NCBI GenBank assembly: GCA_035533095.1
Contig: DATLUM010000065.1
Coordinates: forward strand, 1-38,618
Direction: 5' to 3'
Length of the DNA stretch: 38,618 bases
From: Acidimicrobiales bacterium
GTDB lineage: Bacteria; Actinomycetota; Acidimicrobiia; Acidimicrobiales; Palsa-688
Every line of letters starts with the position of its first letter. Position 1 is the first letter of the stretch. This document shows, piece by piece, positions 7,126 to 33,137 of the stretch. Position numbers and translations under genes: made by a program. The notes below the pieces were generated by a model. That model made no database searches. It was not told the DNA's origin and was given only the letters and a program-made list of their open reading frames with translations.

Positions 7126-7476
<351 letters not shown>

Positions 7477-19165: not shown

Positions 19166-21478
19166 TTACCGAACTACCGGTCTTGCCGTCGCCCTGCGAC
19201 CGGGGAGCTTCACCACCTCTATCGCGTTCGGGAGCTGCTCTTTGATCTCCGGATCGTGTGTGACGACCAGCACCTGGCGGAACCTGGCGCGAAGCCGCTC
19301 CAGGGCCAAGAGCATGCGGGCCTTGCGGTCCTCGTCGAGCGGCCCGAAGACCTCGTCGAGCACCAGCAGCCCGACCGACCCGCCCGACTGGAAGTGGATG
19401 TGCTCGCTGATCGCGACCCGCAAGGCCAGATTTGCCAGGTCTATCTCCGACCCGGAAAAACGATCCAGTCCGAAGACCCTCCCGCCGTCGCTGATCTGCA
19501 GTTCGTACGTATCAGGATCGACGAGCAGCTCGTCGTATTCGCGGTCTGTCAGCTCTGCGAAGAGCTCAGCTGCGTGAGTCGACAGCCGCGGCCCTACGGA
19601 CGCCACGACGGTGTTGCGGAACTCCGACAGCAGATCTGCCACCCGGGCGGTGTGGCGGGCGTCCGACTCGAGCCTCGACAGCTTGGCGTGCTGCTCGCGG
19701 GCCTCCTCCAGTCGCTTGGCGGCTCCGGCCGCCCGTTCGGATTCGCGAGCCGCGACCAGGGCGGACTCCGCGGCCGCTTTGGACGCCATCCGCCGGGCGG
19801 CCGCCACGGTCTCCTGCGTTTCTTTAGCCGCTCGCAGTGCGTCGGAATCGAATCCCAGAGCGCGCACCTTTTCGCGTAGGGCCATGACCTCCTGGGTGGC
19901 GATCTCCAACCTCTCCGACGTCGACGCGATCGACGCCTCCAGGGCAGGCCGGCGTGCGAGCATGCCCTGCAGCCGTTCGGCCTTGGCGCCGGCGGCTCGC
20001 TTGGCGTCCAGGAGCGAGCGCAGTGCCGTCGTCTCTGCCTCGAGGGTTCCGAGGGGGCGAGCGCTGCCACCCCAGCGCGGGCACTCGGACACCAGCTTCT
20101 CCCACGCGCCGGCCAAGGAACTCTCCGCATCCGCGCGCCGCGCGGCGAGTCGTTCCCAGTCCGCCCGCGCCTTGGTCATCTCGTGTGCCGTCTTCTCGTA
20201 GCCGGCGAGATCCCGCGCCGCTCGGCCGGCGATGCCGGTGGCCGATTCCGAGCTCGCCACCGCCTCGCGGTGGCGCTGCTGCGCTGCAGCCAACTCGGAC
20301 GCGCGGTGGGCCTGGACGGTTTCGAACGCGTCGCCGAGCGCCTGGCCGCACACCGGGCAGTCAGCCTCCGCGGACAGTCCCGTGGACCGCTCCACCGTCT
20401 GGCGCGCGCGCTCCAACTCCGATGCGGCCGAATCTGCAAGGGCCGTAGCGCGGGCGGCATCCTCGCGCGCTTGGGAGCAGCGGGCGCGGGCCACCTCGAG
20501 ACGCTCGAGATCCGGTACCGGGGGCTCAGGGGGAAGCTGGAGCGCGCCGAGCGCGCCGGCAGCGTTGAGGACCGCTTCCAGCAGGCGAAGTTCGAGTTCT
20601 GACTCCGCCCACCCGTCAGCCAGCAGCGCCAGCTCGACCAACTCCTGTGCCGCGCCGTCCAGCAGCTGCAGCTCTGCCCGCTGTTCGCCGAGCGCCGCCG
20701 TCGCGCTGTCCAGTTCGTGGCGGGCGGCCTTGCCCTCGAGCACCAACGCCTCATGCTCCTGCCGGCGCAGGTCTTGCTCCGCTACGACGCCGGCTGCTGC
20801 TTCCAGTGCGGCGTCTGCTGCTTCAGCAGCCGCTCCGTCGTCGGCCGCGACCACCGCCGCAGCAGCTGCCCTGGCTTCTGCGTCGGACACCTCTACTTCG
20901 AGGGCGGGCACGTCGGCGAGCATTCCCCGGAGGCGGTTGTGGTCGGCGGACAACTGCCGGGCGTCGCGGCGGGCGGCGTCGCGCGCGGTGTCCAGCGGGG
21001 TCACGCCGAGAAGCTGGAGCACCAGCTTGCGGCGGTCCGCCGGCGCCTGGTTGGAGAACGCCGCCAGCTGCTTCTGCTCCGCGAACACCGATGCCCTGAA
21101 CGCGGCGTCGTCCATGCCGAGCACCGATTCGACATAGCGCTCGGCATCCCGGATACCGGTCGACATGAGAAGGCCGTCGCAGTGCATCTCGACGCTGACG
21201 GTCGAGTTGATGCCCTTCAGCGTGCGTCGCGCGAGGTAGAGGTGCCCCTCGTGCTCGAACTCCACCTCCGTGACGCAGTCCCCGCCGACCCCTGAGGAGC
21301 GAACCTGCTCTTTGTTGGTGCGGGACTTCCCCCACAGCGTGAACAGGATCGCTTCCAGCAACGCCGACTTGCCCGCCCCGTTCGGCCCGTAGATGCCGAC
21401 GAGCCCGGGCGGGATCTCGAGGTCGAGCTCGTCCTCGTAGACCCGGAAGTTCCGCAGGTATATCCGGGTGAGCAGCAA
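19166..21478 (-). CDS. sbcC: SbcC/Rad50-like ATPase subunit of the SbcCD nuclease
   Basis: A 770-residue SMC-like ATPase that clamps and opens DNA ends for the SbcD nuclease. It has Walker A GPNGAGKS (about 31-38), a Q-loop region near FAEQKQLAAF, two long Ala/Glu/Arg-rich coiled-coil arms, the zinc hook CPVCG at about 375-379, the ABC signature FSGSEIDLANLALR near 675 and Walker B LLVLDEVFG near 702 with the D-loop PLDEDR. It is shorter than E. coli SbcC but normal for actinobacteria. The start is TTG 21478, 6 nt after the sbcD stop, with GGGGGAG about 10 nt upstream. It is the downstream gene of an sbcD-sbcC operon. Confidence 0.94.
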   Translation of the reverse strand: MLLTRIYLRNFRVYEDELDLEIPPGLVGIYGPNGAGKSALLEAILFTLWGKSRTNKEQVRSSGVGGDCVTEVEFEHEGHLYLARRTLKGINSTVSVEMHCDGLLMSTGIRDAERYVESVLGMDDAAFRASVFAEQKQLAAFSNQAPADRRKLVLQLLGVTPLDTARDAARRDARQLSADHNRLRGMLADVPALEVEVSDAEARAAAAAVVAADDGAAAEAADAALEAAAGVVAEQDLRRQEHEALVLEGKAARHELDSATAALGEQRAELQLLDGAAQELVELALLADGWAESELELRLLEAVLNAAGALGALQLPPEPPVPDLERLEVARARCSQAREDAARATALADSAASELERARQTVERSTGLSAEADCPVCGQALGDAFETVQAHRASELAAAQQRHREAVASSESATGIAGRAARDLAGYEKTAHEMTKARADWERLAARRADAESSLAGAWEKLVSECPRWGGSARPLGTLEAETTALRSLLDAKRAAGAKAERLQGMLARRPALEASIASTSERLEIATQEVMALREKVRALGFDSDALRAAKETQETVAAARRMASKAAAESALVAARESERAAGAAKRLEEAREQHAKLSRLESDARHTARVADLLSEFRNTVVASVGPRLSTHAAELFAELTDREYDELLVDPDTYELQISDGGRVFGLDRFSGSEIDLANLALRVAISEHIHFQSGGSVGLLVLDEVFGPLDEDRKARMLLALERLRARFRQVLVVTHDPEIKEQLPNAIEVVKLPGRRATARPVVR

Positions 21479-21484
21479 CGCCGG

Positions 21485-22606
21485 TCAGCTCCCCCCGGCG
21501 GCGACGATCGCCCCATCCAGGTAGTCGTGACCGAGGTCGCGCACCCGCTTGCGGTCGAGGCCGGTCAGGTCCTGACCCTCGAGGTAGCCGTCCCACTGGG
21601 CTCCGAGCGTCGTCACGGTGGGCAGCTCGGCATGCATGGTCGTAGCCACGAACTGCGGTTCCAGCCTCAGCGCCAATGCAGCCGCGGCGGCGTCGCGGAT
21701 CTCCTGCATGTCGAGCATGCGGTACACGTCGGGGTCGATCCCGTCTATGTACAGCCGGGCGACCGCACCGACTGGGACCTCGGACGCGCGGGCGAGCACC
21801 CGCTCCTGCAGCTCGCGCGGAGAGAGACCGAGCGCGTACACGGTCTCGAGGGTTACGAGAGGCCGGCATCCCTCGAGCGGCACGTGGCGGCACTCGCCGC
21901 TGTCGGTGTCGAGCACGACGATTCCCTTGGCGGTGCCGGGATCGTCGGCGAAAGTGAAGGTGTCGGTGGAGCCGGCATACCACATACCGTCCGCAACACG
22001 TGCGAAGGAGTGGTAGTGACCGAGGAGCACGAGGTCGGAGCGGAGGCGTCCGGCGTCGACCTCGATCTCGTTGATGTCCGCATGCTGCGGCTGGAGCTGG
22101 ACCAGCCTCGGGTGGGTCAGGAGCAGGTTGGTCCGGCCGGGATCGCGCCGGCGGGCTGCCTCGTCGAGAGCCTCGAGAGCCGCCTCGACGGTCATCATCT
22201 GGGGGACGGCGTGGATGACCAGCCCGGCGACCTCGAAGCGCTCGTAGGCGAGGCGGTGGGCGAAGTGCATCTCTGGGAACGTGTCGGCCAGCGCGGAGTA
22301 GGGGCTGCCCGTGCCCGGCAGGCGCGGGGTGTCGTGGTTGCCGCTTATGACGGCTGCCTTGAGGCCGTGCTCGCGGATCTTGGCCATGCCGCGCTGCGCC
22401 ACCCGGAACGCTCGGTAAGTCGGTCGCGGGTGGTCGAACACGTCGCCCAACCAGACCACGAGATCCGGCTCCTGGGCCAGGGCGAGGTCCACGGCGGCCT
22501 CAAAGGACTGCTCGAAATCGACCTCCCGCTGGTTGACCCCGCCAGCCGTGGTGATGGGTAGGTAGGAGCGCCCGAGGTGCGCGTCCCCTATCGCCGCAAC
22601 ACGCAT
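21485..22606 (-). CDS. sbcD: SbcD/Mre11-like nuclease subunit
   Basis: A 373-residue metallophosphoesterase-type nuclease that, with SbcC, cuts DNA ends, hairpins and blocked breaks. All metal-binding motifs are present: GDAHLG (7-12), GDVFDHPR (54-61), GNHD (89-92), an active-site His in LLLTHPR and GHYHS (about 196-200). The C-terminal half contains the capping and SbcC-binding region. ATG 22606 is chosen because the conserved fold begins at residue 3 (VAAIGDAHLG); an in-frame extension to 22651 adds 15 unlikely residues. It is divergent from the NERD gene across 67 bp. Confidence 0.93.
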   Translation of the reverse strand: MRVAAIGDAHLGRSYLPITTAGGVNQREVDFEQSFEAAVDLALAQEPDLVVWLGDVFDHPRPTYRAFRVAQRGMAKIREHGLKAAVISGNHDTPRLPGTGSPYSALADTFPEMHFAHRLAYERFEVAGLVIHAVPQMMTVEAALEALDEAARRRDPGRTNLLLTHPRLVQLQPQHADINEIEVDAGRLRSDLVLLGHYHSFARVADGMWYAGSTDTFTFADDPGTAKGIVVLDTDSGECRHVPLEGCRPLVTLETVYALGLSPRELQERVLARASEVPVGAVARLYIDGIDPDVYRMLDMQEIRDAAAAALALRLEPQFVATTMHAELPTVTTLGAQWDGYLEGQDLTGLDRKRVRDLGHDYLDGAIVAAGGS

Positions 22607-22661
22607 GCCCCCAGCAAACCAGAGTGGTAGGACGAATACCAAGCATGTCATTTGCTCCTCG

Positions 22662-22667
22662 TAGTGT
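22662..22667 (+). promoter_or_regulatory. -10 box for leaderless NERD transcript
   Basis: TAGTGT ends 6 nt before GTG 22674 and there is no Shine-Dalgarno, matching the leaderless pattern at other genes in the window. Confidence 0.35.
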
Positions 22668-22673
22668 GGTCGT

Positions 22674-23462
22674 GTGCGAAACGAGCCCGCCCGTGCCGGG
22701 CGCTCGGCGCTGGAGTGCTACCGGACCGAGGTCCGGGAGCGCCGGCGAGCGTTCACGCGCTGTGCTGCCGCAACATTTGCGTCGGCGGGCCTCGGCTGGC
22801 TGGCGCTTCGTCTCGGGGGCGACGCCGGCAACGCGGCGTTTGCCGGCGCCATCGTGCTGCTGGTTTCCGCCCTGTGGATGCGGCCCAGCCCCGACCCCGA
22901 GCGGTGGTTGCGGGGCGCGGCCGGCGAGGTGGCCACCGCCCGGATGCTGGAATGCCTGCCCGACCGCAAGTGGGTGGTCCTCCACGATCTTGCGGTGCCG
23001 GGGAGCAGGTCCAACGTCGATCACCTGGTGATCGGCCCGACGGGAGTGTGGGTCGTCGACTCCAAGACCAAGCGGGGGCGGGCTCGCCGGGGACTCGGCG
23101 GCGTGAGGTTCGGGGATCACCGTCTCGACACCGGGCCGGTTCGCTTCGAGGCGTCGGTGGTCGAGGAACGGCTTGGTGTGAGGGTCCGGGCTGTCGTGGC
23201 GGTTCACGGCGCGGGGTTGCCGCGGCGCGGCGTGAGAAGCGGGGGAGTGCGGGTGGTCCCGGCCGGCAGCCTGGTCGGCCTTCTCACGCGGCCTGGCTGG
23301 CCGCCGTGGCGGCGCAGGTGCAGGCGTTCCGAGGTGCGCCGGCTGGCCCGCTTGGCGGAGTCGCAGCTCGCACCGGCAAGATGTAGCAGTCCATACGGGG
23401 GGTGGTACCGGTCGAAGCGAGATCCGAGGGAACCGAGCCGGCAGGTGGACGGGAGGCGGTAG
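22674..23462 (+). CDS. NERD (nuclease-related) domain membrane protein
   Basis: The 262-residue product has two N-terminal hydrophobic segments (about 28-45 and 52-69) and then a NERD domain: GEVATARMLECLP, WVVLHDLAVPGSRSNVDHLV and GVWVVDSKTKRG. The D...D-x-K arrangement (NVDHLVI then VVDSKTK) is the restriction-endonuclease-like active-site pattern of this family. A DNA-processing role is presumed from fold, not proven. GTG 22674 is preceded by TAGTGT. Its 3' end overlaps the NUDIX reading frame by 61 bp if the earliest NUDIX start is used. It sits between the sbcDC and herA-nurA operons. Confidence 0.83.
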   Translation: MRNEPARAGRSALECYRTEVRERRRAFTRCAAATFASAGLGWLALRLGGDAGNAAFAGAIVLLVSALWMRPSPDPERWLRGAAGEVATARMLECLPDRKWVVLHDLAVPGSRSNVDHLVIGPTGVWVVDSKTKRGRARRGLGGVRFGDHRLDTGPVRFEASVVEERLGVRVRAVVAVHGAGLPRRGVRSGGVRVVPAGSLVGLLTRPGWPPWRRRCRRSEVRRLARLAESQLAPARCSSPYGGWYRSKRDPREPSRQVDGRR

Positions 23463-24169
23463 GCGCCGGAGGGATGGTGCCGGCAGCCACGGTGGTGCCC
23501 CTGAGGGAAGAGCGTGACGGGCTGGAGGTTCTCCTGCTCCGGAGGAATTCTCGTGGCGCGTTCGGCGGGATGTGGGTATTCCCCGGTGGCAAGGTCGACC
23601 AAGCGGACTCCGTGCAGCCAGCGGGAGATCCCCCAGGCGAGGGCGATCTCGGCACGGGTAGCCCGGCCGAGATCGCCGCTGCGCGCCGGGCGGCGGTGCG
23701 CGAAGCCAAGGAGGAGGCCGACCTCGACCTGGACGAGTCGTCGCTCGTCACTCACTCGTTCTGGTTGCCTCCGCCGGAGGCTCCGCGGAGGTTCGCCACG
23801 TGGTTCTTCCTCGCGCCGGCGGGCGGCGAGATCGTCGTGGACCAGGGGGAGATCCATGAGCACCGGTGGCTGGCGCCGGTGGAGGCGATGGCCGCCCGTG
23901 ACAGCGGGGAGATCGAGCTGGCGCCGCCGACCTTCATGACGCTGTGGTGGCTCAGCACCAAGAAGACGGTCGCCGAGGCGATCTCGGAAGCGGCGGCGCG
24001 CGAGCCGGAGCGGTTCCAGACGAGGGTGGCGCTGGACGGGTCCGGGCGCCTGGCGGCGACGATGTGGGCCGGTGACGCCGGCTACGCCGACGGGGACCTG
24101 GAGCGGCCCGGGCCGAGGCGCCGGATGTGGATGACGGCCGGCGGCTGGCGGGTCGAGGTGGACGGCTAG
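23402..24169 (+). CDS. NUDIX hydrolase, NUDT19-like
   Basis: A cytoplasmic pyrophosphohydrolase of 231-255 residues. The NUDIX core begins at PAATVVPLREE and has GMWVFPGGKVDQAD, then an insertion of about 30 residues, then AVREAKEEADLDL, which supplies the REUXEE metal-binding part of the NUDIX box. An insertion inside the box is typical of NUDT19-like CoA diphosphatases, so CoA or another nucleoside diphosphate derivative is a possible substrate. The Gly after REAKEEA is Asp. The earliest start GTG 23402 overlaps the NERD gene; ATG 23474 after GGAGGG is also possible. It ends immediately before the converging herA stop with no intergenic base. Confidence 0.87.
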   Translation: MVPVEARSEGTEPAGGREAVGAGGMVPAATVVPLREERDGLEVLLLRRNSRGAFGGMWVFPGGKVDQADSVQPAGDPPGEGDLGTGSPAEIAAARRAAVREAKEEADLDLDESSLVTHSFWLPPPEAPRRFATWFFLAPAGGEIVVDQGEIHEHRWLAPVEAMAARDSGEIELAPPTFMTLWWLSTKKTVAEAISEAAAREPERFQTRVALDGSGRLAATMWAGDAGYADGDLERPGPRRRMWMTAGGWRVEVDG

Positions 24170-25774
24170 TCAGTCCACAAGTGCCGAGGTGTTCGCGGCG
24201 GCCGACGGTCTGGGCGCGGGAGGCGCCGGCGTCGAGCGTGCGAGGTCCGAGTAGAGGTCGACCAGAGCCGGCACCGCGAAGGGGGCGTGGAGGTTGACGA
24301 GCAGGCACTCACCCGGCATGAGCGTCTGGATCTCCGCGCTTTGAGCGCTGATGTCCTGCTTCGCGGAGGAACGCAGCATGTTGCGATCCTTCTCGTCTGC
24401 GAGCCCGAGGATGAAGAAGGTGTTGAACTGGCTCAGCAACTCGTCATCGAGCAGCTTCGGCTGCTGGGTGACCGCGCAGAGCCCGACATTGAACTTGCGT
24501 CCCTCGCGTGCGACGCGCGGGAAGACGTTCGATTCCCTGTCGCCCCGGGCGCCGAGCACCCTCTGCGCCTCCTCCAACGCGATCGACACCACCGGCATTC
24601 GCTGGTGCCGGTCGGCGTCGTCGAGGTACGCGGCCTGCCACGTCTCGAGGACGCGGCGGGCGAGAAACGACGCCACCAGCACCTCTTCCGTCGACCCCAA
24701 CCCGCTCACGTCGACGAGCACGACCTTGCCTGAAAGCAGGTCGTCGATTATCCGACCGCCGGCGGACAGCCCGGGGTCGGTTGCCACACAGCGGAGATCC
24801 ACGATCCGCCGGGCCCGGCGGTGCACAACCTGGAGCGTGTTCAGCGCGACGCGCGATGAGATCTCCACGTCGCGAAAGCCCGTGAGATCCTCGACGGCAG
24901 CGAAATCTGCCAGCCACGCCAGGCCCGCCGTCCCGTAGTGTCGCTCGAGCTCGTACAGAGCCTCCTCCTGCGGGCGGCTCCAGTCGTAGGCAGTGCGCAG
25001 ATCGTCGACGGTGAGCTCGGCGAGGCTGATCTTCAACGCGGAAGTGCCTGGAAGCGAGCGGTTGGCATATACGCGAAGTGACTCCGACGCCCAGGGGTGC
25101 CGGGTCAAAGCCGTGCGGTACTCGCCGTGGGGATCGACCAGCAGCAGCGAGTAGCGGCCGTTGGCACGCATCACTCCCGCGGCCAGAACCTGCATGAGGT
25201 TGGACTTGCCCATGCCGGTGGTGGCGAAGACCCCGATGTGGGTCGCGAGCGAGGAGCCCGGGATCCCCACCGTGAAGTCGACGACGGCTTCTCCGCTGCG
25301 CAGGCGCCCGATCGGAAGATCGCCCATCCTCTCGGACAGGAAAGCGAAGTCCTCGGCTTCGGGCGCCACGACGGCGGAGAACTGGGTCGGCAGGCTCTTG
25401 GGTTTGCGAAAGGTCTCGCGCGGCCCCGATCCCGACTCCGGGGGGGCGAGGTATCCGAGGCAGCGGCAGTCGGCGATCCGGTACGTGCGCCGGTCCTGCT
25501 CGTGCAGCGGGTGAATCCCGGCTTCGCCGCGCTCGTCGTCGGCGAGCAGCGTGCCGGCGACCCGCTCGGCCCAGCCCGGTTCGCGGTGCTCGGATCCGTA
25601 CGTGACGTCGACGACCCGGAAGAGGTAGCGGCGGTCGGTTACCGGGTCGACACCCACGAGGAGCTCGCCTATGAAGAGATCCTCGTCGGGCGCCGCCCGG
25701 AAGGTTCCTTCCAGCACGTTCCGCCCGTACAGCCTGCCTCTGACCCGCCGCGCCGTCGCCGCGAAACCCATCAT
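24170..25774 (-). CDS. herA: HerA-like hexameric DNA translocase ATPase
   Basis: A 534-residue ATPase of the HerA/FtsK branch that pumps DNA and works with the NurA nuclease in end resection. An N-terminal beta-barrel (HAS-like) region (1-110) is followed by Walker A FATTGMGKSN near 186-195, the strand LLLVDPHGEY, a helical insertion, and Walker B VSIALEEAQRVL near 398 with the double Glu of the family. The C-terminal part has the sensor-type VTQQPKLLDDELLSQ stretch. ATG 25774 overlaps the nurA stop by 1 nt (TGATG), with AAAGGG 4 nt upstream; ATG 25771 is equivalent. The tight nurA-herA coupling supports the assignment. Confidence 0.92.
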   Translation of the reverse strand: MMGFAATARRVRGRLYGRNVLEGTFRAAPDEDLFIGELLVGVDPVTDRRYLFRVVDVTYGSEHREPGWAERVAGTLLADDERGEAGIHPLHEQDRRTYRIADCRCLGYLAPPESGSGPRETFRKPKSLPTQFSAVVAPEAEDFAFLSERMGDLPIGRLRSGEAVVDFTVGIPGSSLATHIGVFATTGMGKSNLMQVLAAGVMRANGRYSLLLVDPHGEYRTALTRHPWASESLRVYANRSLPGTSALKISLAELTVDDLRTAYDWSRPQEEALYELERHYGTAGLAWLADFAAVEDLTGFRDVEISSRVALNTLQVVHRRARRIVDLRCVATDPGLSAGGRIIDDLLSGKVVLVDVSGLGSTEEVLVASFLARRVLETWQAAYLDDADRHQRMPVVSIALEEAQRVLGARGDRESNVFPRVAREGRKFNVGLCAVTQQPKLLDDELLSQFNTFFILGLADEKDRNMLRSSAKQDISAQSAEIQTLMPGECLLVNLHAPFAVPALVDLYSDLARSTPAPPAPRPSAAANTSALVD

Positions 25775-26772
25775 CACGCCCTTTCCATCAATCGGTGCCG
25801 GTCCGCGAACGCCCGCTCTCTCACGTCCCAGGGCACTCCCGCCGAATCGAGCACGTCCTCGATCGACGCCCACACCTCCTCGCGGACGTGGGAGGGGCAG
25901 GCGGCGAGCCTGTCGGCCACGCTGAGCGGGTAGGGATAGCCAGGGAAGGCGGCATCGTCGCACAACGCCGAGATCGTGGCGAGCAGGTCTTCGACTTCCG
26001 CCCGCCCAAGCGAGCCCGGCAGGTCGACGCGAAAAGAGAACCGCGCGTCGGGATCGAGCCTGGCCACCACCACCTGAATCCCGGCTCCGACATCGGGACG
26101 GGTACGCGCAACCGGAGCCCACCAGCACGAGCGTGGGCCGAGCTCGTCGGCGGCGAGCCGTTCGAGCCGCCCCAGCAGTGGAGCGCCGCCCCATGTGAGC
26201 GAGGTGTGTTTCGTGATACCGGCGACGACGACCCCGCGGCTCGCGGCCGTGGAAAGGAGTTGCTCGAGCCAAGCCGAGGAGATGCGCCAGTCGGGCTGCA
26301 GATCCCCGTCGACGAGCACGACACCCCCTGGGAGCGTGTCCTGCACGCACGACGCGACCGCCTGCCACTCCAGCCAGTCGCGCAGGAGATTCACATCGAC
26401 CGGTGACTCGGGTGAGACGGGGGCGTCCGATCCTGCCAGCGCACGCTTCTCCTCTCCCATTCCGAAAAGACAGACGCGCAGCGTGCCCTCGTCCTCCACG
26501 GTGCAACGCCCCGCCTGCCAGCGGACACGGGAAGCTCGCGCGGCGTACACCTGGACGCACCGGGCGTCCGCGACGAGTGCCTGGCCCCCGTCGACCGCCC
26601 AGACGTCGGGAGGTTCCCCTCGGCGCTCGAGCGTGTTCAGGCGAATGTCGGGCTCGAACTCGAGGTCGCTTCGACCCGGCTCGCGCAGCTGCGGACCTTC
26701 GCCACCCAGGATCTCCGCCAGGCGGGTGCCGGTTGCCACAAGGGTTGTATCGGAGTGCGCCGCTTCGAACAT
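25774..26772 (-). CDS. nurA: NurA-domain nuclease
   Basis: A 332-residue nuclease of the NurA fold (RNase H/PIWI-like), which with HerA degrades DNA ends. The metal-site motifs are WAVDGGQALV near 56-65 (first Asp), VVLVDGDLQPDW near 149-160 (second acidic motif) and FRVDLPGSL plus YPYPLSVADRLA in the C-terminal third. The start ATG 26772 lacks a Shine-Dalgarno. It lies only 17 bp from the divergent ku start, sharing a GAACAT/ATGTTC inverted repeat. Its stop overlaps herA. Bacterial members are far less studied than the archaeal ones, so polarity of digestion is inferred from family. Confidence 0.88.
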   Translation of the reverse strand: MFEAAHSDTTLVATGTRLAEILGGEGPQLREPGRSDLEFEPDIRLNTLERRGEPPDVWAVDGGQALVADARCVQVYAARASRVRWQAGRCTVEDEGTLRVCLFGMGEEKRALAGSDAPVSPESPVDVNLLRDWLEWQAVASCVQDTLPGGVVLVDGDLQPDWRISSAWLEQLLSTAASRGVVVAGITKHTSLTWGGAPLLGRLERLAADELGPRSCWWAPVARTRPDVGAGIQVVVARLDPDARFSFRVDLPGSLGRAEVEDLLATISALCDDAAFPGYPYPLSVADRLAACPSHVREEVWASIEDVLDSAGVPWDVRERAFADRHRLMERA

Positions 26773-26787
26773 CGGGGAAGAATGTTC
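26767..26787. promoter_or_regulatory. Inverted repeat between nurA and ku
   Basis: GAACAT, 9 nt, ATGTTC: a perfect 6-bp dyad that fills the 17-bp gap between the two divergent start codons. It could be a shared operator. The half-site resembles the SOS-box half-site GAAC/GTTC, but the spacing is too long for a LexA box. Confidence 0.35.
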
Positions 26788-26789
26788 TC

Positions 26790-27578
26790 ATGCCCAGGGC
26801 CATATGGAGCGGATCGGTCAGCTTCGGTCTGGTCAACGTGCCGGTGAAGCTGACCACAGCGACCTCGCCGAAGGACGTGCGGTTCCACCAGCTGCACGAC
26901 GAGGACGGCGGTCGCATCAACCAGAAGCGGGTCTGCTCCATCGACGGCGAGGAAGTCGACTACAGCCACATCGTCAAGGGGTACGACCTGGGCGGGGGGC
27001 GCTACGTCACGGTCACGCCCGAAGAGCTCGCGGGCCTCGATGTCGCGGCGACCCGCACGATCGACATCGAGGAATTCGTCGATCTCGCCGAGATCGATCC
27101 CGTCTACTTCGAGCACAGCTATTACCTGGTTCCTGACGGCCGGGCCGAGAAACCGTACGCCCTCCTGGTCGAGACCATGTCACGCACGGGCAAGGTGGCC
27201 ATCGGCCGCTTCGTGCTTCGCACCAAGCAGTACCTCGCGACCATGCGCGCACGCGACGGGGTGCTGATCCTGTCGACCATGCTCTTCGCCGACGAGGTGG
27301 TCGATCCTGCGGACCTCGACGTGCCGAGCGCGGCCGACATGCAACCGACCGACAGGGAGCTGAAGATGGCGGAGCAGCTGGTGGAGTCGTTGTCGGCTCC
27401 GTTCGATCCGGCCAAGTATCGCGACGACTATCGCGAGAAGGTTCTCGCGCTCATCGACGCGAAAGCCGAGGGTGAGGAGATCGTGGCTCCCGAAACCCCG
27501 GCGGCTCCTGCCCCCGTCGTCGATCTGATGGCCGCGCTCGAGGAGAGCCTCGCGAGAGCGAAGAAGCGGTCGGCCTGA
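26790..27578 (+). CDS. ku: Ku DNA end-binding protein
   Basis: A 262-residue homodimeric Ku that binds broken DNA ends and recruits LigD for non-homologous end joining. It begins with the family hallmark MPRAIWSGSVSFGLVNVPVKL and has FHQLHDEDGGRINQKRVC, DLAEIDPVYFEHSYYLVPD and YRDDYREKVLALIDAKAEG, the full bacterial Ku core. The C-terminal tail is short and Ala/Pro/Lys-rich, without the long Lys-rich extension of some actinobacterial Ku proteins. ATG 26790 is preceded by GGGGAAG 9 nt upstream. The LigD polymerase gene follows after 4 nt. Promoter elements must overlap the divergent nurA coding region. Confidence 0.95.
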   Translation: MPRAIWSGSVSFGLVNVPVKLTTATSPKDVRFHQLHDEDGGRINQKRVCSIDGEEVDYSHIVKGYDLGGGRYVTVTPEELAGLDVAATRTIDIEEFVDLAEIDPVYFEHSYYLVPDGRAEKPYALLVETMSRTGKVAIGRFVLRTKQYLATMRARDGVLILSTMLFADEVVDPADLDVPSAADMQPTDRELKMAEQLVESLSAPFDPAKYRDDYREKVLALIDAKAEGEEIVAPETPAAPAPVVDLMAALEESLARAKKRSA

Positions 27579-27582
27579 GATC

Positions 27583-28479
27583 GTGGCGGCGGGACAGAAG
27601 CGGGTCGAGGTCCACGTAGGCAAGCGCACCCTCAGCCTGTCGAACCTGGACAAGGTGCTCTGGCCCGAGACCGGCTTCACGAAGGGGCAGCTGATCGATT
27701 ACTACTCCCGAGTCGCGGAGGTGATGGTCCCGCACCTCACGCGCCGCCCTATAACCCTCAGAAGGTGGCCGAACGGCGTCGACGGGCAGTCTTTCTTCGA
27801 AAAGAACTGTCCGTCACATCACCCGGCATGGGTGGAGTCGGTCCAGATGGGCGACGTCCGCTACTGCACTCTCGACGAGCCGGCGGCGCTCGTGTGGGTC
27901 GCAAACCTCGCCGCCATCGAGTTGCACCCGAGCCTCGCCCGGGCGCCCGACCTCGAAGTCCCCACCGCGGTCGTGTTCGATCTCGACCCCGGAGCGCCCG
28001 CCGACATACTCACCTGCGCCAAGGTCGGGTTCATTCTCCGGTCGGCGCTCGAACGGCTCGGATTGGAGACGTGGCCCAAGACCTCTGGCAGCAAGGGCCT
28101 CCAGATATACGCACCCCTGAACTGCGGCGCCGGTTACGACCGCGTCAAACCCTTCGCGCAAGCGGTCGCCCAGCTTCTCGAACGCGACCACCCGGACCTC
28201 GTCGTCAGCAACATGGAGAAGTCGATACGCAAAGACAAGGTGCTCATCGACTGGAGCCAGAACACCGCGTCGAAGACGACGGTTTCCGTCTATTCGGTGA
28301 GGGCACTCGACCGGCCGAGCGTCTCGACACCGGTCACCTGGGACGAGCTCGATCACGCGCTCTCCTCGCGAGACGCCTCAATCCTGCGCTTCGGGCCACA
28401 GGAGGTGCTCGAACGGGTCGAACGGTTGGGGGACCTGCACGCACCCGTCCTGGAGCGTCGCCAGGAACTGCCCCTCTGA
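27583..28479 (+). CDS. ligD: LigD-type primase-polymerase (stand-alone polymerase domain)
   Basis: A 298-residue archaeo-eukaryotic primase-like polymerase that fills gaps at Ku-held ends, preferring ribonucleotides. Metal-binding Asp133 and Asp135 lie in VFDLDPGAP; the SGSKGLQIYAP block near 166-176 and the third acidic site in KVLIDWSQN near 226 are present. The N-terminal TLSNLDKVLWPE-like block (LSLSNLDKVLWPETGFTKG) is typical. The ligase and phosphoesterase domains found in full-length LigD are absent, so ligation must come from another gene. GTG 27583 is 4 nt after the ku stop. The gene ends in a hairpin shared with the converging glycerol kinase gene. Confidence 0.93.
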   Translation: MAAGQKRVEVHVGKRTLSLSNLDKVLWPETGFTKGQLIDYYSRVAEVMVPHLTRRPITLRRWPNGVDGQSFFEKNCPSHHPAWVESVQMGDVRYCTLDEPAALVWVANLAAIELHPSLARAPDLEVPTAVVFDLDPGAPADILTCAKVGFILRSALERLGLETWPKTSGSKGLQIYAPLNCGAGYDRVKPFAQAVAQLLERDHPDLVVSNMEKSIRKDKVLIDWSQNTASKTTVSVYSVRALDRPSVSTPVTWDELDHALSSRDASILRFGPQEVLERVERLGDLHAPVLERRQELPL

Positions 28480-28512
28480 AGAGTCTGCGCCGCGAGCGGC
28501 GCGAGCCTCTTC
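28478..28512. terminator. Bidirectional terminator between ligD and glpK
   Basis: GAAGAG/CTCTTC outer arms (28478-28483 and 28507-28512) and GCGCCG/CGGCGC inner arms around a CGAG loop make a two-part hairpin. The arms overlap both converging stop codons. There is no U-run, as is common in actinobacteria. Confidence 0.6.
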
Positions 28513-29956
28513 AGAACTCGAGCGCGCTTAGGTCCGGGTACCACTTCGCGGCGCGGTTGGTTGCCTCCCGCCAACGGTCCCGGTAATTGGGCCGGCCGCT
28601 CGGCTCAACGGTCTGCGCGGGATTCCACGTGGCGGCGATGTCGTCCATCCCCTTCCAGGTGCCGACGGCGAGACCTGCGAGCAGCCCCGCCCCGAGCGTC
28701 GTCGCCTCCAGCTCACGTGAGACCTCCACCGGCCGGTCGCAAGCATCGGCCAGTGCCTGCACGAACACCTGGTTGGCGCTCATGCCACCGTCGACGCGCA
28801 GGCGCTCGACGCGCAGGCCGGCGTCCTGTTCCGCGGACTCCAGCAGGTCGGCGCCGGAATGGGCGATTCCTTCGAGCACGGCGCGCACGATCTCCGGCCT
28901 GCCGGAACCTCGTGTCAGCCCGAACAGCGCGCCTCTCGCCCCGAAATCCCATTGGGGGGTGCCGAATCCGAGCAGCGCCGGTACCGCCACCACCCCGCCG
29001 GTTTCCTCGCACTCGCCCGCCACGGCTTCGGACTCGGCGGGACTCGAGAGGAGACCCAGATCCTCCACCAACCAGTCGATGGCCGTTCCCGCCGCGAGCA
29101 TGATCGCCTCGACACCCCACGTGATGCGCCCCTCCCGCTGCCAGGCGATTATCGGGAAACAGCCGCCTCCCCCGCGGGTCGAGAACCCCGGTCTCGAGTC
29201 GCCGGTGCACACATCGAGCATCGCTCCCGTGCCGAACGTCGCTTTGGCGAGGCCCGGTCCCGTGCAGCCCTGCCCCGCGAGGGACGCCTGCTGGTCCCCT
29301 ATGAGCGAGCACAGCGGGGGGGCTCCGGGAAGCTCGCTGGCAACGCCGAGCTCGCCGCTGGAATCGACTATCCGAGGGAGAGAATCCGGCGGCAGCCCGA
29401 GCTTGTCGAGGAGGTCCTGGCGCCAGCCGAGGCCGTCACGGCTGTAGAGGCCCGTCACCCCCGCGTTGCTCGGGTCGGTGATGTGCAGCCGACCTCCGCT
29501 CACGTTCCACGCGATCCACGAGTCGACCGTACCGAGCTTCGCGTGCGCGCACCGGTCTGGGCCGGCCTGCTCGAGAAGCCAGGCGAACTTCGTCGCCGCC
29601 TCGCTCGGCGAGAAACGGACTCCCTGGGCCTGCAACTCCAGGCACATACCGACGGTCCGCAGGTCCTGCCAACCAAGACCGGGACCGAGCGGTTCGCCGG
29701 TGGTGGAATCCCACGCGATCGCCGACGACCGTTGAGCCGTGACGCCGACAGCGTCGACCGGACCACCCGCGTCCAGGGCCTGGTGCGCGACCTCCATCGC
29801 GGCGGAAGCCATGGCGGCGGGATCGAACTCCACCAGACCCGGCATCGGTACGTGCGGAGGAAGCGGGCGGCGGCGGACGTGCTCGACGGTCGCGTCGGGG
29901 CGCACGATCGCGGCGCGCACGCTGCTCGTTCCCACGTCGATGACGAGAATGCTCAC
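28511..29956 (-). CDS. glpK: Glycerol kinase-like FGGY carbohydrate kinase
   Basis: A 481-residue kinase that should phosphorylate glycerol to glycerol-3-phosphate with ATP. It has IDVGTSSVRAAIV at the N-terminus, the metal/substrate stretch GDQQASLAGQGC, FGTGAMLDVCTG and the C-terminal adenosine motif RVDGGMSANQVFVQALAD with DRPVEVSRELEATTLGAGLLAGLAVG, the usual FGGY glycerol-kinase pattern. Some substrate-contact stretches differ from E. coli GlpK, so a related polyol is possible, but the neighbouring glpD supports glycerol. GTG 29956 overlaps the upstream flavoprotein stop by 4 nt. It is the last gene of the glpD operon. Confidence 0.87.
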   Translation of the reverse strand: MSILVIDVGTSSVRAAIVRPDATVEHVRRRPLPPHVPMPGLVEFDPAAMASAAMEVAHQALDAGGPVDAVGVTAQRSSAIAWDSTTGEPLGPGLGWQDLRTVGMCLELQAQGVRFSPSEAATKFAWLLEQAGPDRCAHAKLGTVDSWIAWNVSGGRLHITDPSNAGVTGLYSRDGLGWRQDLLDKLGLPPDSLPRIVDSSGELGVASELPGAPPLCSLIGDQQASLAGQGCTGPGLAKATFGTGAMLDVCTGDSRPGFSTRGGGGCFPIIAWQREGRITWGVEAIMLAAGTAIDWLVEDLGLLSSPAESEAVAGECEETGGVVAVPALLGFGTPQWDFGARGALFGLTRGSGRPEIVRAVLEGIAHSGADLLESAEQDAGLRVERLRVDGGMSANQVFVQALADACDRPVEVSRELEATTLGAGLLAGLAVGTWKGMDDIAATWNPAQTVEPSGRPNYRDRWREATNRAAKWYPDLSALEF

Positions 29957-31473
29957 GGTTCGGGCCACTCCTTGCGGATATCGCCGAACGGCGACGGAAG
30001 TCCCAGCTTGCCTGGGTTCAAGATGCCGTTCGGATCGAGTGCGGACTTGATCGAAGCGAGCACGTCGAAGCCGCCGCCGAGGTGGTCCGCCATGTATCCC
30101 GCACGGTTGATCCCGACACCGTGGTGGTGGGAGATGGCGCCGCCCCGCTCGGCGGTGGCACGCATGATCGCTCCGAACGCCTTGCGGTAGTAGGCCTCGC
30201 CGGCACCGTTCGTTGGGGACTCGGGCCGGCCGGCGAAGGTGAAGTAAAGGCACGCCCCGTCGGTGTAGGCGTGGGACTGGTGCGCCGAGGCGGTGATCGT
30301 CCCGTCGATCGCGCGCAGCGCTTCGGTAGCGGCCCGGTAGATGCCGGGAAGCGCAGCCCAGATCCCGGAGATCTCGACGGTCTCGACGATGATCCCAGCG
30401 CGCACGAGCGAGTCGAGCGACGGAAGCTCGTTGCGGTGCTCGAGCCAACGAGCTGCGATTCCGGCATCGAGCGTCCTCCCTTGACGGGCGCACTCCTCGT
30501 CGACGACCTTCATGACGCCATCGATTAGCGCGGGGTCGCCCTCGTCGATCACCACGAGAACCGCTTCCCCGTCGACCTCGAAGTTACGGCGCGACTCCGC
30601 AGCGTCGTAGAGCCGGAGCACGGCCGGCGTCGCGCCCCGCCGCATCACCAACCGGCAAGCCTCCAGCCCCTCTTCGAATGTCGGGAACCCGTACACGGAC
30701 CGCCGTTCGGCCGGCGGCGCCGGGTGGACTCTCAGCTGTACCCCCGTGACGACGCCGAGAGTGCCCTCGCTGCCGACGAACAGCTGTGTGAGATCGGGAC
30801 CTGTGGCCGCACGGGGTGCTTTGCCGCCGGTGTGGATCACGGTCCCGCCGGCGAGAACCACCTCGAGGCCGGCGACGATGTCCTCGATCTTGCCGTAGCG
30901 CGTCGAATACTGACCCGCGCCCCGGCACGCAACCCATCCACCGACAGTCGACAGCGCGATCGACTGCGGCCAGTGCCCGGCGGTCATCTCGTGGTTCGAT
31001 CGCAGCTGGGCTTCGAATTCGTCGCCGAATGTTCCCGCCTTCGCCGTGACCAGAAGCGAGGTGTCGTCGACGTCGGTGATCCCGGTGAGCCCGGTGAGGT
31101 CGAGCGAGATCCCACCGAATACTGGGATGCTTCCTCCGCAGACGCCGCTCCTGCCGGCGAAGGGGACGACGGGGACGTTGGCGTCGTTGCACGCACGGAG
31201 CACAGCGGACACCTCGGTGGTGTCGGCAGGTCTCACGACAGCGGTGGGGATCGCGGGGTTGGTGCCTTCGAGGGCCCACACCACCGACAGCGGCCACCAA
31301 TCCCGCCCGGCACGCACCCTGGCCTCGTCGCTGCTTTCGACGGAGCTGCACACGTCGCGGAGGCGCCGGATGAGCTCGTCGGCCGGGGTGGCTGCGGCGG
31401 TCGAGCCGGAGAACCTCGAAGGCCGGCCCGCCGCGTCCGCTCCGAGCTCGGCCGGCACGTCACGACCGGTCAT
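29953..31473 (-). CDS. FAD-linked oxidase, alkyl-dihydroxyacetonephosphate synthase-like
   Basis: A 506-residue flavoprotein of the FAD_binding_4/FAD-oxidase C class. The FAD domain shows VVRPADTTEVSAVL, PFAGRSGVCGG, STVGGWVACRGAGQYSTRYG and FVGSEGTLGVVTG. The C-terminal domain has CLYFTFAG and the triple-His loop SHHHGVG near 448-453, both hallmarks of alkylglycerone-phosphate synthase (AGPS), which swaps the acyl chain of acyl-DHAP for a fatty alcohol to form an ether. D-lactate/glycolate dehydrogenases lack the HHH loop, so AGPS-like is preferred. ATG 31473 overlaps the glpD stop (ATGA) and its own stop overlaps glpK. Actinobacteria often keep such a gene near glpD. Ether-lipid synthesis is inferred. 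Confidence 0.85.
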   Translation of the reverse strand: MTGRDVPAELGADAAGRPSRFSGSTAAATPADELIRRLRDVCSSVESSDEARVRAGRDWWPLSVVWALEGTNPAIPTAVVRPADTTEVSAVLRACNDANVPVVPFAGRSGVCGGSIPVFGGISLDLTGLTGITDVDDTSLLVTAKAGTFGDEFEAQLRSNHEMTAGHWPQSIALSTVGGWVACRGAGQYSTRYGKIEDIVAGLEVVLAGGTVIHTGGKAPRAATGPDLTQLFVGSEGTLGVVTGVQLRVHPAPPAERRSVYGFPTFEEGLEACRLVMRRGATPAVLRLYDAAESRRNFEVDGEAVLVVIDEGDPALIDGVMKVVDEECARQGRTLDAGIAARWLEHRNELPSLDSLVRAGIIVETVEISGIWAALPGIYRAATEALRAIDGTITASAHQSHAYTDGACLYFTFAGRPESPTNGAGEAYYRKAFGAIMRATAERGGAISHHHGVGINRAGYMADHLGGGFDVLASIKSALDPNGILNPGKLGLPSPFGDIRKEWPEP

Positions 31474-33137
31474 CTCGAAGCTAGCTCCTGAAAGGCTCTG
31501 CGGTCCGACTCGATCCCGGCTTCGAACGCTGCAAGCTGACGCGCCGTCTCGCCACCGTCCCACCCGAGCTCGGCGGCGAGCAGCTGCGCGACGGACGACG
31601 CCGCGGATGCCGCCGCCTCCCTGTCGAGGATGCGTGCCCTGGTCCTGCGCGACAGGACGTCGTCGAGCGTGAAGGCCATTTCGTGACGGGCCGCGAACAC
31701 GGCCTCAGCCTTGAGATACGGCAGCGAGTCCGAGATCGGGTCGGCAAGGCCAGGTAGCTCCCGGCACAGGCGGGCGATCTCGGCCGCCTCGCTCCCGTAA
31801 CGGCCACTGAGGTGTTGCGATACCGGGTCCCCGGAGTCCCGCCCCGAGCTTGGCGCCGACACCGGCGCGCCGGCGAGGCTCAGGCGAGCAGTGCTCGAAC
31901 GGCGACGCGCGCCCTTGGCATCGGGGAGGACACGGAGTGCGGCGCCGACGGTGTCGGCGGCCATCAGGCGATACGTCGTGAGCTTCCCTCCGGTCACGGT
32001 GACGAGGCCGTTGGGCGAGGTCGTGACGGAGTGGCGGCGCGAAAGGTCCGCCGTCCTGGAGTTGCGGGCGTCGCTGACGAGCGGGCGCAACCCGGCCCAG
32101 CTGCCGGTGACGTCCGCCGGCGTCAACCCGGCCGAAGTCCAGCGGTTCACGGCGCGCAGGACGTACTCGACGTCACCGGCATCGCATTGGGGATCGTCGA
32201 GGGGGCCGTCGTAGTCGGTGTCGGTGGTGCCGATGTACGTGAAGCGGCGCGAACCGTCGGGCCCTTCGGCCTCATCGGCGGCCCACGGCACGACGAAGAC
32301 CGATCGCCGGTCCCCCGGCACCGCGAGCACGGCGGCGAAGTCGCACGGGAGCTTCGAGGCAGGGACGGTCAGGTGGATACCTTTCGCGGGCCGGATGGCC
32401 ACCGGGCTGCCGGCCGCGTGCCCGTCGAGGGTCGCCACCTTCTCCGACCAGACACCGCCGGCGTTGACCACCACGCCCGCCTGGATCCGGGTGCCGTCGG
32501 CGAGGACGGCGCCCGCCACACGGCCACGCTCCTGCACGATCTCCGCAACAGGCGAGTAGTTGGCGAGCACCGCGCCGTGTTCCGCTGCGGTGCGCGCAAT
32601 CGCGAGGGTGAGGCGAGCGTCATCGGCCTGGGCGTCCCAGTAGAGGAAGGACGCGACCAGCTGGTCGGTCCTAATTGACGGAAAATGGCGGAGCGCCTCG
32701 CTGGCGTCCAAGCGTCGGTGGCGCTTGCCTATACGGATACCGCCCGTGAGGTCGTAGGTCCACAGCGCGACCGAATACGCCTTCGCCACGCTCTTTGACA
32801 CCACTCCGTCCTTGCCGAAGAGAGGCACGAGGAAGGGGAGAGGGTGCACCAGGTGCGGCGCGTTCGTGAGGAGTCGTTGGCGCTCGTGCAGAGCCTCGTA
32901 CACCAACCGGTAGTCGTGCTGTTGGAGGTAACGCAGGCCTCCGTGCACCATCTTCGAAGACTTCGAAGATGTCCCCGAGGCGAAATCCCGCGCCTCCACC
33001 AGCGCGGTGCGCAGCCCGCGCGCAGCGGCATCGAGAGCGGTCCCGCAGCCCGTGATCCCTCCGCCGATCACGAGCACATCGAACCTCTCTGCGGCTAGGC
33101 GCTCCAAGGAGCGCCGGCGGTCGAACGGCACGGTCAC
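31470..33137 (-). CDS. glpD: FAD-dependent glycerol-3-phosphate dehydrogenase
   Basis: A 555-residue membrane-associated enzyme that oxidises glycerol-3-phosphate to DHAP and passes electrons to quinone. It has the N-terminal FAD motif DVLVIGGGITGCGTALDAAARG (split here as VIGGGITGCG near 23-32), the family block ASGTSSKSSKMVHGGLRYL, ITDP-type substrate region and GLRPLVSD, plus the C-terminal DUF-like helical domain with SRRTRARILD. GTG 33137 is preceded by TAGGGT 6 nt upstream, a likely leaderless start, and it heads the glpD-AGPS-like-glpK operon, all coupled by 4-nt overlaps. Length is normal. Confidence 0.94.
   Translation of the reverse strand: MTVPFDRRRSLERLAAERFDVLVIGGGITGCGTALDAAARGLRTALVEARDFASGTSSKSSKMVHGGLRYLQQHDYRLVYEALHERQRLLTNAPHLVHPLPFLVPLFGKDGVVSKSVAKAYSVALWTYDLTGGIRIGKRHRRLDASEALRHFPSIRTDQLVASFLYWDAQADDARLTLAIARTAAEHGAVLANYSPVAEIVQERGRVAGAVLADGTRIQAGVVVNAGGVWSEKVATLDGHAAGSPVAIRPAKGIHLTVPASKLPCDFAAVLAVPGDRRSVFVVPWAADEAEGPDGSRRFTYIGTTDTDYDGPLDDPQCDAGDVEYVLRAVNRWTSAGLTPADVTGSWAGLRPLVSDARNSRTADLSRRHSVTTSPNGLVTVTGGKLTTYRLMAADTVGAALRVLPDAKGARRRSSTARLSLAGAPVSAPSSGRDSGDPVSQHLSGRYGSEAAEIARLCRELPGLADPISDSLPYLKAEAVFAARHEMAFTLDDVLSRRTRARILDREAAASAASSVAQLLAAELGWDGGETARQLAAFEAGIESDRRAFQELASR

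Follow-up and report, generated by a model that had tools for sequence, protein, structure and literature searches.

A nurA-herA-mre11-rad50 gene run head to head with a ku-polymerase pair in an Acidimicrobiales draft genome

Eight genes, all present, open and intact, occupy positions 19166-28479 of contig DATLUM010000065.1 from an Acidimicrobiales bacterium (assembly GCA_035533095.1). The whole contig, 38,618 nucleotides read on its forward strand, is the stretch analysed and is called the window. The genes encode a Rad50-type ATPase, an Mre11-type phosphoesterase, a NERD-domain protein, a NUDIX hydrolase, the HerA translocase, the NurA nuclease, a bacterial Ku and a stand-alone LigD-type polymerase domain. 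On the basis of gene order, motifs and fold, the block is likely to be a bacterial version of the machine with which archaea process DNA ends (HerA-NurA-Mre11-Rad50), with a minimal non-homologous end joining (NHEJ) module lying head to head with it.

The window is a complete 38.6-kb contig of a 3.44-Mb draft genome that is 97% complete, and its G+C content runs from 0.64 to 0.73 in 1-kb steps. Its closest named relatives are four metagenome-assembled genomes (MAGs), three labelled Acidimicrobiaceae and one Actinomycetes. Within the order, 118 genomes were compared: 27 with a HerA match >300 bits (HerA+) and 91 without (HerA-). The limit was our own choice, and weaker HerA-superfamily matches in other genomes were excluded from the HerA+ counts. 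Loci were read in 28 stretches from the 26 HerA+ genomes besides the window's own (genome G000), with stretch L108 completing G105, and in four named MAG loci. Outside the order, 396 genomes of the phylum were sampled, with no more than three HerA candidates scored per genome; 16 exceeded 300 bits. Genomes, contigs, loci and families carry our own G, C, L and f numbers.

The Rad50-type protein carries a Walker A motif (GPNGAGKS), a zinc hook (CPVC), an SGS signature and a Walker B motif (LLVLDE). Its best match in the PDB is 3qkt, a Rad50, at 82.9 bits, and the best SbcC entry is 6s6v at 57.8 bits. The Mre11-type protein has the motifs DAHLG, GDVFD, GNHD and GHYH; GNHD is absent from 8 of 44 Mre11 sequences, two of the eight truncated. 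Its best PDB match is 3auz, an Mre11 (53.9 bits), with the SbcD entry 7dog at 32.0 bits. We take structures 3qkt and 3auz to be archaeal proteins. An initial annotation of the window, which gave all gene positions and the span exactly, had named this pair sbcD and sbcC. The Mre11-Rad50 superfamily was correctly recognised; the canonical names are not upheld, with best PDB matches named Mre11 and Rad50 and scores below the curated cut-offs for SbcD (TIGR00619, 44.8 versus 77.65 bits) and SbcC (TIGR00618, 106.8 versus 478.5 bits).

HerA matches PF01935 at 79.6 bits, and its best PDB match is 4d2i, the Sulfolobus HerA according to the available text of PMC9960219. The P-loop, ATTGMGKS in the window, was read by eye, a G-first P-loop pattern having been mis-specified such that it missed the HerA P-loop in all 49 sequences. 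The Walker B pattern was found in 49 of 49 (LLLVDPHGE in the window). NurA is weak by sequence alone, matching PF09376 at 24.6 bits against a cut-off of 21; the same family is matched by 38 of the 41 aligned relatives. That alignment holds 41 of 47 sequences, with L035, L053, L056, L058, L097 and L099 left out. A profile built from it reached the Sulfolobus NurA 2ygk at 2.7e-5 over three collinear stretches, and residues D61, E135 and D155, presumably catalytic, are invariant in all 41. The predicted fold (predicted local distance difference test, pLDDT, 94) has Sulfolobus solfataricus NurA 2ygk as its best PDB match (E=8.2e-12), and NurA from Deinococcus (complex 7f6d) and Thermococcus rank third and fourth. 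The NurA assignment is firm by profile and predicted fold. For Mre11, Rad50, HerA and NurA, "archaeal-like" refers to the closest solved structure and not to a tree.

The window polymerase matches PF21686 at 281.5 bits and TIGR02778 over cut-off. Its first label, ligD polymerase, was apt for a LigD-type polymerase gene and too wide in that only the polymerase domain of LigD is matched. Two ATP-dependent ligase matches lie elsewhere in the window genome, and one of them, on contig C50, matches PRK08224 over cut-off; we take it to be LigC. With ku and a stand-alone polymerase adjacent and the ligase separate, the genome has a kuA-polK-type layout. The PRK08224-type ligase (L134) lies about 4 kb from a short RecB/Cas4-like PD-(D/E)XK nuclease gene.

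Table 1. Features of the window, with positions counted from its first nucleotide.
Feature	Position	Strand	Size	Basis or context
Rad50-type ATPase (first named sbcC)	19166-21478	-	770 aa	Family matches, motifs, PDB matches
Mre11-type phosphoesterase (first named sbcD)	21485-22606	-	373 aa	6 bp ahead of rad50
NERD-domain protein	22674-23462	+		Family match, conserved residues, model
NUDIX hydrolase	23474-24169	+		Family match; stop codon abuts herA stop codon (convergent)
HerA ATPase/translocase	24170-25774	-	534 aa	Start on last base of nurA stop codon (TGATG)
NurA nuclease	25774-26772	-	332 aa	Family match, profile, fold
Gap between nurA and ku start codons	26773-26789	.	17 bp	Genes head to head
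Bacterial Ku	26790-27578	+	262 aa	TIGR02772 320.1 bits, over cut-off
Stand-alone LigD-type primase-polymerase domain (polK-like)	27583-28479	+	298 aa	4 bp past ku
FGGY kinase, GlcD-type oxidase and GlpD-type genes	28511-33137			Flank the block; on the rad50 side in unlinked relatives; last two named by reading, no family search
Bacterial RNase P RNA, class A	7127-7471	-		

As far as contigs extend in the 27 HerA+ genomes, nurA, herA, mre11 and rad50 follow one another in that order on a single strand, with no counter-example seen. Contig ends cut the run short in G025, G036 and G114, and in G009, G021 and G105 it is spread over more than one contig. Outside the order, nurA-herA is present in 16 of 16 strong-HerA genomes, mre11 is reached in 13 and rad50 in 12, and the rest stop at contig ends. 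Bacillaceae megaplasmids of Pontibacillus (L144) and Priestia (L145) carry nurA-herA-metallophosphoesterase-SMC in the same order and strand. Because this order recurs across the order, the phylum and the Bacillaceae megaplasmids, nurA-herA-mre11-rad50 is read as a widely shared putative bacterial operon. In relatives the four genes are co-directional neighbours, whereas the window has 1.5 kb of inverted NERD-NUDIX between herA and mre11. The neighbourhood first described as three pairs of bacterial counterparts is real, with the correction that herA-nurA and the supposed sbcD-sbcC form one four-gene run, split by NERD or NERD-NUDIX in the window's clade. Among the named MAGs, L034 stops just past herA, and L035 is a 5.5-kb stretch that has a NERD gene between herA and mre11 and stops 1 kb upstream of nurA. 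Gyrase genes lie near the four genes on the Pontibacillus megaplasmid. Genome G063 (L133) has an mre11-rad50 pair of the window's kind plus a canonical SbcD.

Across the order sample, HerA goes with Ku and ligase and away from SbcD. Ku was found in 26 of 27 HerA+ and 43 of 91 HerA- genomes (p=1e-6; by family 14/15 versus 27/46, p=0.013), and an ATP-dependent ligase in 27 of 27 and 48 of 91 (p=6e-7; by family 15/15 versus 29/46, p=0.006). Canonical SbcD, scored as TIGR00619 over cut-off, was found in none of the 27 HerA+ genomes and in 33 of the 91 others (p=5e-5; by family 1/15 versus 22/46, p=0.005). The families in these tests are not independent of one another. Outside the order, Ku occurs in 8 of the 16 HerA+ genomes, always on a contig other than that of herA. 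Known roles of the families, together with the association with SbcD absence, suggest that the four-gene machine probably does the job of SbcCD.

A stronger version, in which the operon is the cell's only resection machine and displaces AdnAB/RecBCD as well as SbcCD, drew on the distribution of AdnAB-sized frames. Frames of at least 900 aa matching PDDEXK_1 over cut-off occur in 9 of 21 HerA+ and 29 of 37 HerA- genomes (p=0.01) and in none of the window's family; this comparison used good-quality genomes, the 37 HerA- being every second of 74, and 3 of the 29 are weak. It is ruled out by the RecBCD of the window's own family: RecC-, RecB- and RecD-like genes lie side by side in the window genome (L140, contig C42), and RecC- and RecB-like genes are present in G069 and G105. 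The G069 proteins match RecB at 350.7 bits and RecC at 356.5 bits. UvrD_C matches led to recC-recB-recD, and G015 has the same pair of large frames, seen outside the family scan. PF12705 barely detects these RecB proteins (23.6 bits in G069, unlisted for G000 and G105). Sampled genomes seem to differ in their use of RecBCD or AdnAB.

Anti-phage defence was considered as a function of the block, since HerA and Rad50-like ATPases both occur in anti-phage systems. The ATPase domains have hits to several PADLOC models (HerA, best 83.0 bits; Mad3, 108.1; LmuB, 80.4), and 260 plasmid records carry HerA-like proteins, with conjugation predicted for 117 of these records; only 3 records cover at least 80% of the window HerA. 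NurA, Mre11, NERD, Ku and the polymerase match no PADLOC family at E <= 0.01, leaving no partner effector known to PADLOC, and NUDIX has one weak match at 25.5 bits. The HerA-NurA-Mre11 tree groups genomes of the same family together, and matches to HerA in phages are limited to 3 records, not one of which spans 80% of the protein. A defence system is therefore very improbable, and a defence island and a phage origin are both disfavoured.

The NERD gene stands between herA and mre11 in 6 loci only, all of the window's clade: the window, G015, G069, G105, L032 and L035 (JAJYLA and JAUTXN besides the four G genomes). It was not found by tblastn in the remaining stretches read from the order. The initial annotation proposed it as an unrecognised extra nuclease of the machine. 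The residues GE, DH and D(S/T)K are invariant in the 6 sequences, and the model (pLDDT 80, six-row alignment) gives weak PDB matches that include PD-(D/E)XK nucleases, Hjc among them, none at E <= 0.001. The gene is, however, confined to one clade and lies on the opposite strand, and a relative of the window's NUDIX accompanies it in 2 of the 5 other loci (L032, L044). A hydrophobic N-terminal stretch in 5 of the 6 proteins suggests a membrane protein. Intact nuclease residues notwithstanding, position alone ties NERD to the resection machine, and a role as its extra nuclease is unlikely. Relatives have a coding frame for a MarR-type DNA-binding domain between NUDIX and herA (L044, 8140-8970, + strand; similar frames in L032 and L046); it is missing in the window, where NUDIX and herA abut.

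Head-to-head placement of ku upstream of nurA was found in 9 of the 26 HerA+ Ku+ genomes, from 4 of 14 families: f1 (G000, G015, G069, G105), f4 (G003, G062), f30 (G030, G080) and f2 (G001), at distances from 17 bp to 7.0 kb. It also occurs in the named MAGs L032, L033 and L034. Over these 12 linked loci, the gap between the start codons is 16-17 bp in 3, 56-165 bp in 3 and 0.7-7.0 kb in 6. A limit of 8 kb, set after the data were seen, defines linkage; 7 of the 26 genomes, from 3 families, would still count as linked at <=2 kb. Random placement within 8 kb is expected at about 0.5% per genome, giving 3e-13 for 8 of 26 genomes and 5e-7 for 4 of 14 families, figures that ignore shared ancestry. 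Eight linked genomes entered this calculation; the ninth, G105, has nurA 56 bp from ku on another contig. Scattering of the genes in close relatives, which had been named as the sign of chance clustering, is not what was found. In 4 of 4 same-family genomes (the window included, and G105 over two contigs) and in 3 of 4 named MAG loci, the fourth being the truncated L035, ku lies beside nurA. Different families and phyla share the four-gene part, and ku lies near nurA more often than random placement would give. The ku-nurA neighbourhood is significant but lineage-restricted and dispensable.

On the HerA-NurA-Mre11 tree, the linkage label changes four times against a shuffled mean of 10.8, compatible with one origin; the Ku tree shows a single change, and the branch that carries it is unsupported. 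The FGGY gene is on the ku side in 6 of the 12 linked loci (window, L032, L033, L044, L037, L038), and 8 unlinked loci have it on the rad50 side; FGGY was found in these 14 loci and no others. This pattern suggests one old ku-linked arrangement and later rearrangement. Genes between nurA and ku include a glyoxalase-like gene in G062 (related frame in G003) and a Rieske/FAD oxidoreductase in G080 (related frame in G030), neither a repair gene. Short tandem repeats occupy the start gap of G069 (L044) and are possibly read as part of the NurA N-terminus. Inherited synteny alone, an old arrangement that some families retained and rearrangement disrupted in others, could keep the ku-polymerase pair beside nurA without functional or regulatory coupling. 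The FGGY-GlcD-GlpD metabolic genes travel with the block as well, the two trees are compatible with one origin of linkage, and the 17 unlinked genomes retain both systems. Set against this, four families have retained the linkage, three loci share a spacing of 16-17 bp, and the HerA-Ku co-occurrence holds where the genes are unlinked too. We regard the chances of synteny alone as evenly poised, and it is compatible with the end-processing reading of the four-gene part.

Regulatory motifs were sought with patterns that we take to represent the actinobacterial LexA box and the RecA-NDp/PafBC motif. Searches of the window and 81 sequences gave no convincing SOS or PafBC-type box at the block. LexA-box-like palindromes with <=3 mismatches number 35 in the window versus 19.4 expected, and 0 of 100 shuffles had as many; they are spread all over the window, and the excess is unreadable as regulation of the block. 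One match falls within nurA (26654-26669, 2 mismatches), roughly 100 bp from the nurA start. RecA-NDp matches number 9 versus 5.7 expected, with as many in 15 of 100 shuffles. A stricter pattern applied to the 81 sequences returned three rows, which fall at two sites within mre11 genes (L049, L053). PafBC regulates the damage response of actinobacteria independently of LexA. WYL/WCX regulators, of which one has a PafC helix-turn-helix, are encoded just past the ku-polymerase pair in family f4 (G003, G062), at L038:14632-16026 and L037:6620-7534.

Joint control of resection and end joining, as raised in the initial annotation, is possible. A more elaborate proposal for the window's clade is that the 17-bp divergent region acts as an "end-fate" switch, setting the ratio of Ku to HerA-NurA and so dosing resection against joining. 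The four-gene machine would then be a bacterial partner that hands ends to Ku or takes ends from it, perhaps at the membrane via NERD. This proposal is speculative and rather unlikely.

Under the reading of the block as an end-processing machine beside an NHEJ module, the known families outline the following course. Mre11-Rad50 would bind and clip blocked or hairpinned ends. A HerA ring docked on a NurA dimer would translocate on the duplex and degrade the 5' strand; the remaining 3' tail would go to RecA. The four-gene machine would thereby fill the SbcCD niche alongside RecBCD. Ku would compete for the same ends and recruit the stand-alone polymerase, and the LigC-type ligase encoded elsewhere would seal them. 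In the window's clade, head-to-head starts could let both routes be expressed from one short region; that they balance the two routes is a guess.

Several observations weigh against this reading. The NCBIfam archaeal equivalog cut-offs are missed by far (Rad50 124.4/847, Mre11 52.1/500, HerA 87/800 bits), and by these scores the predicted window proteins are distant from archaeal and SbcCD models alike. Three genomes have mre11-rad50 without adjoining herA-nurA (G048, L132; G063, L133; G067, L131), and in the named MAG L033 no mre11 was found in the 3.3 kb between herA and the contig end. Canonical SbcD is also missing from 58 of the 91 HerA- genomes, and the "replacement" of SbcCD is therefore an association. 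In 17 of the 26 HerA+ Ku+ genomes, Ku sits on a different contig and would be >7 kb away however the contigs are joined, and it is absent from 8 of the 16 HerA+ genomes outside the order (families f71, f87, f112 and f118; assemblies of 0.8-1.8 Mb); the four-gene machine therefore needs no NHEJ partner. Deinococcus and Thermus nurA or herA mutants show modest effects or improved resistance, as far as the available text of PMC9960219 goes, so a repair role in bacteria cannot be assumed.

The available texts of PMC9960219 and PMC4663267 describe bacterial NurA-HerA as confined to a few bacteria, such as Deinococcus-Thermus. In the loci read here, the four-gene set recurs as a putative operon within part of the phylum and on plasmids of two Bacillaceae. 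It is associated with Ku and, across the order sample, was never found together with canonical SbcD. The function of HerA-NurA-Mre11-Rad50 in a bacterium with RecBCD and NHEJ becomes a testable question. A literature search joining HerA and NurA with LigD and NHEJ returned no paper, and older comparative papers on HerA may already describe bacterial four-gene clusters; we make no claim that the bacterial four-gene operon or the arrangement is unreported. A study of bacterial Ku and LigD examined their mutual proximity, and the terms SbcC and NurA are absent from its text (PMC7719229).

The closest known system is the archaeal herA-mre11-rad50-nurA operon, in which herA stands first and nurA last. 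The four gene families are the same, the closest solved structures of HerA, Mre11, Rad50 and (by fold) NurA are archaeal, and the window has the HerA P-loop and Walker B, the NurA fold and acidic residues, the Mre11 motifs and the Rad50 zinc hook. Unlike the archaeal operon, the loci read here have nurA first. The window also differs in its inserted NERD-NUDIX pair, a feature of its clade, in scores below the archaeal NCBIfam cut-offs, in the divergently adjacent ku-polymerase pair and in coming from a bacterium that also has RecBCD. Sulfolobus islandicus has all four genes in a single operon and can dispense with none of them, as given in the available text of PMC4351679. The Deinococcus NurA-HerA pair, which adds little to radiation resistance according to the accessible part of PMC4663267, shares the bacterial NurA and HerA families, and its complex 7f6d is the third fold match of the window NurA. 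The window HerA matches 9 PDB sequences at E<=0.01, and their entries do not include 7f6d. Canonical SbcCD shares the Mre11-Rad50 superfamily and the gene order D then C, whereas the window pair scores below curated cut-offs and the 27 HerA+ genomes have no canonical SbcD over cut-off. The Pontibacillus and Priestia megaplasmid clusters have the same four genes, order and strand; they differ in that their HerA is 33-34% identical and their 13.5-kb stretches give no match to the window Ku. Streptomyces kuA-polK and ligC-polR are separate conserved loci (PMC5124664, available text). In the window too, Ku is followed directly by a polymerase domain that stands alone, with a LigC-type ligase gene at another place in the genome; unlike Streptomyces kuA-polK, the pair here lies head to head with nurA-herA.

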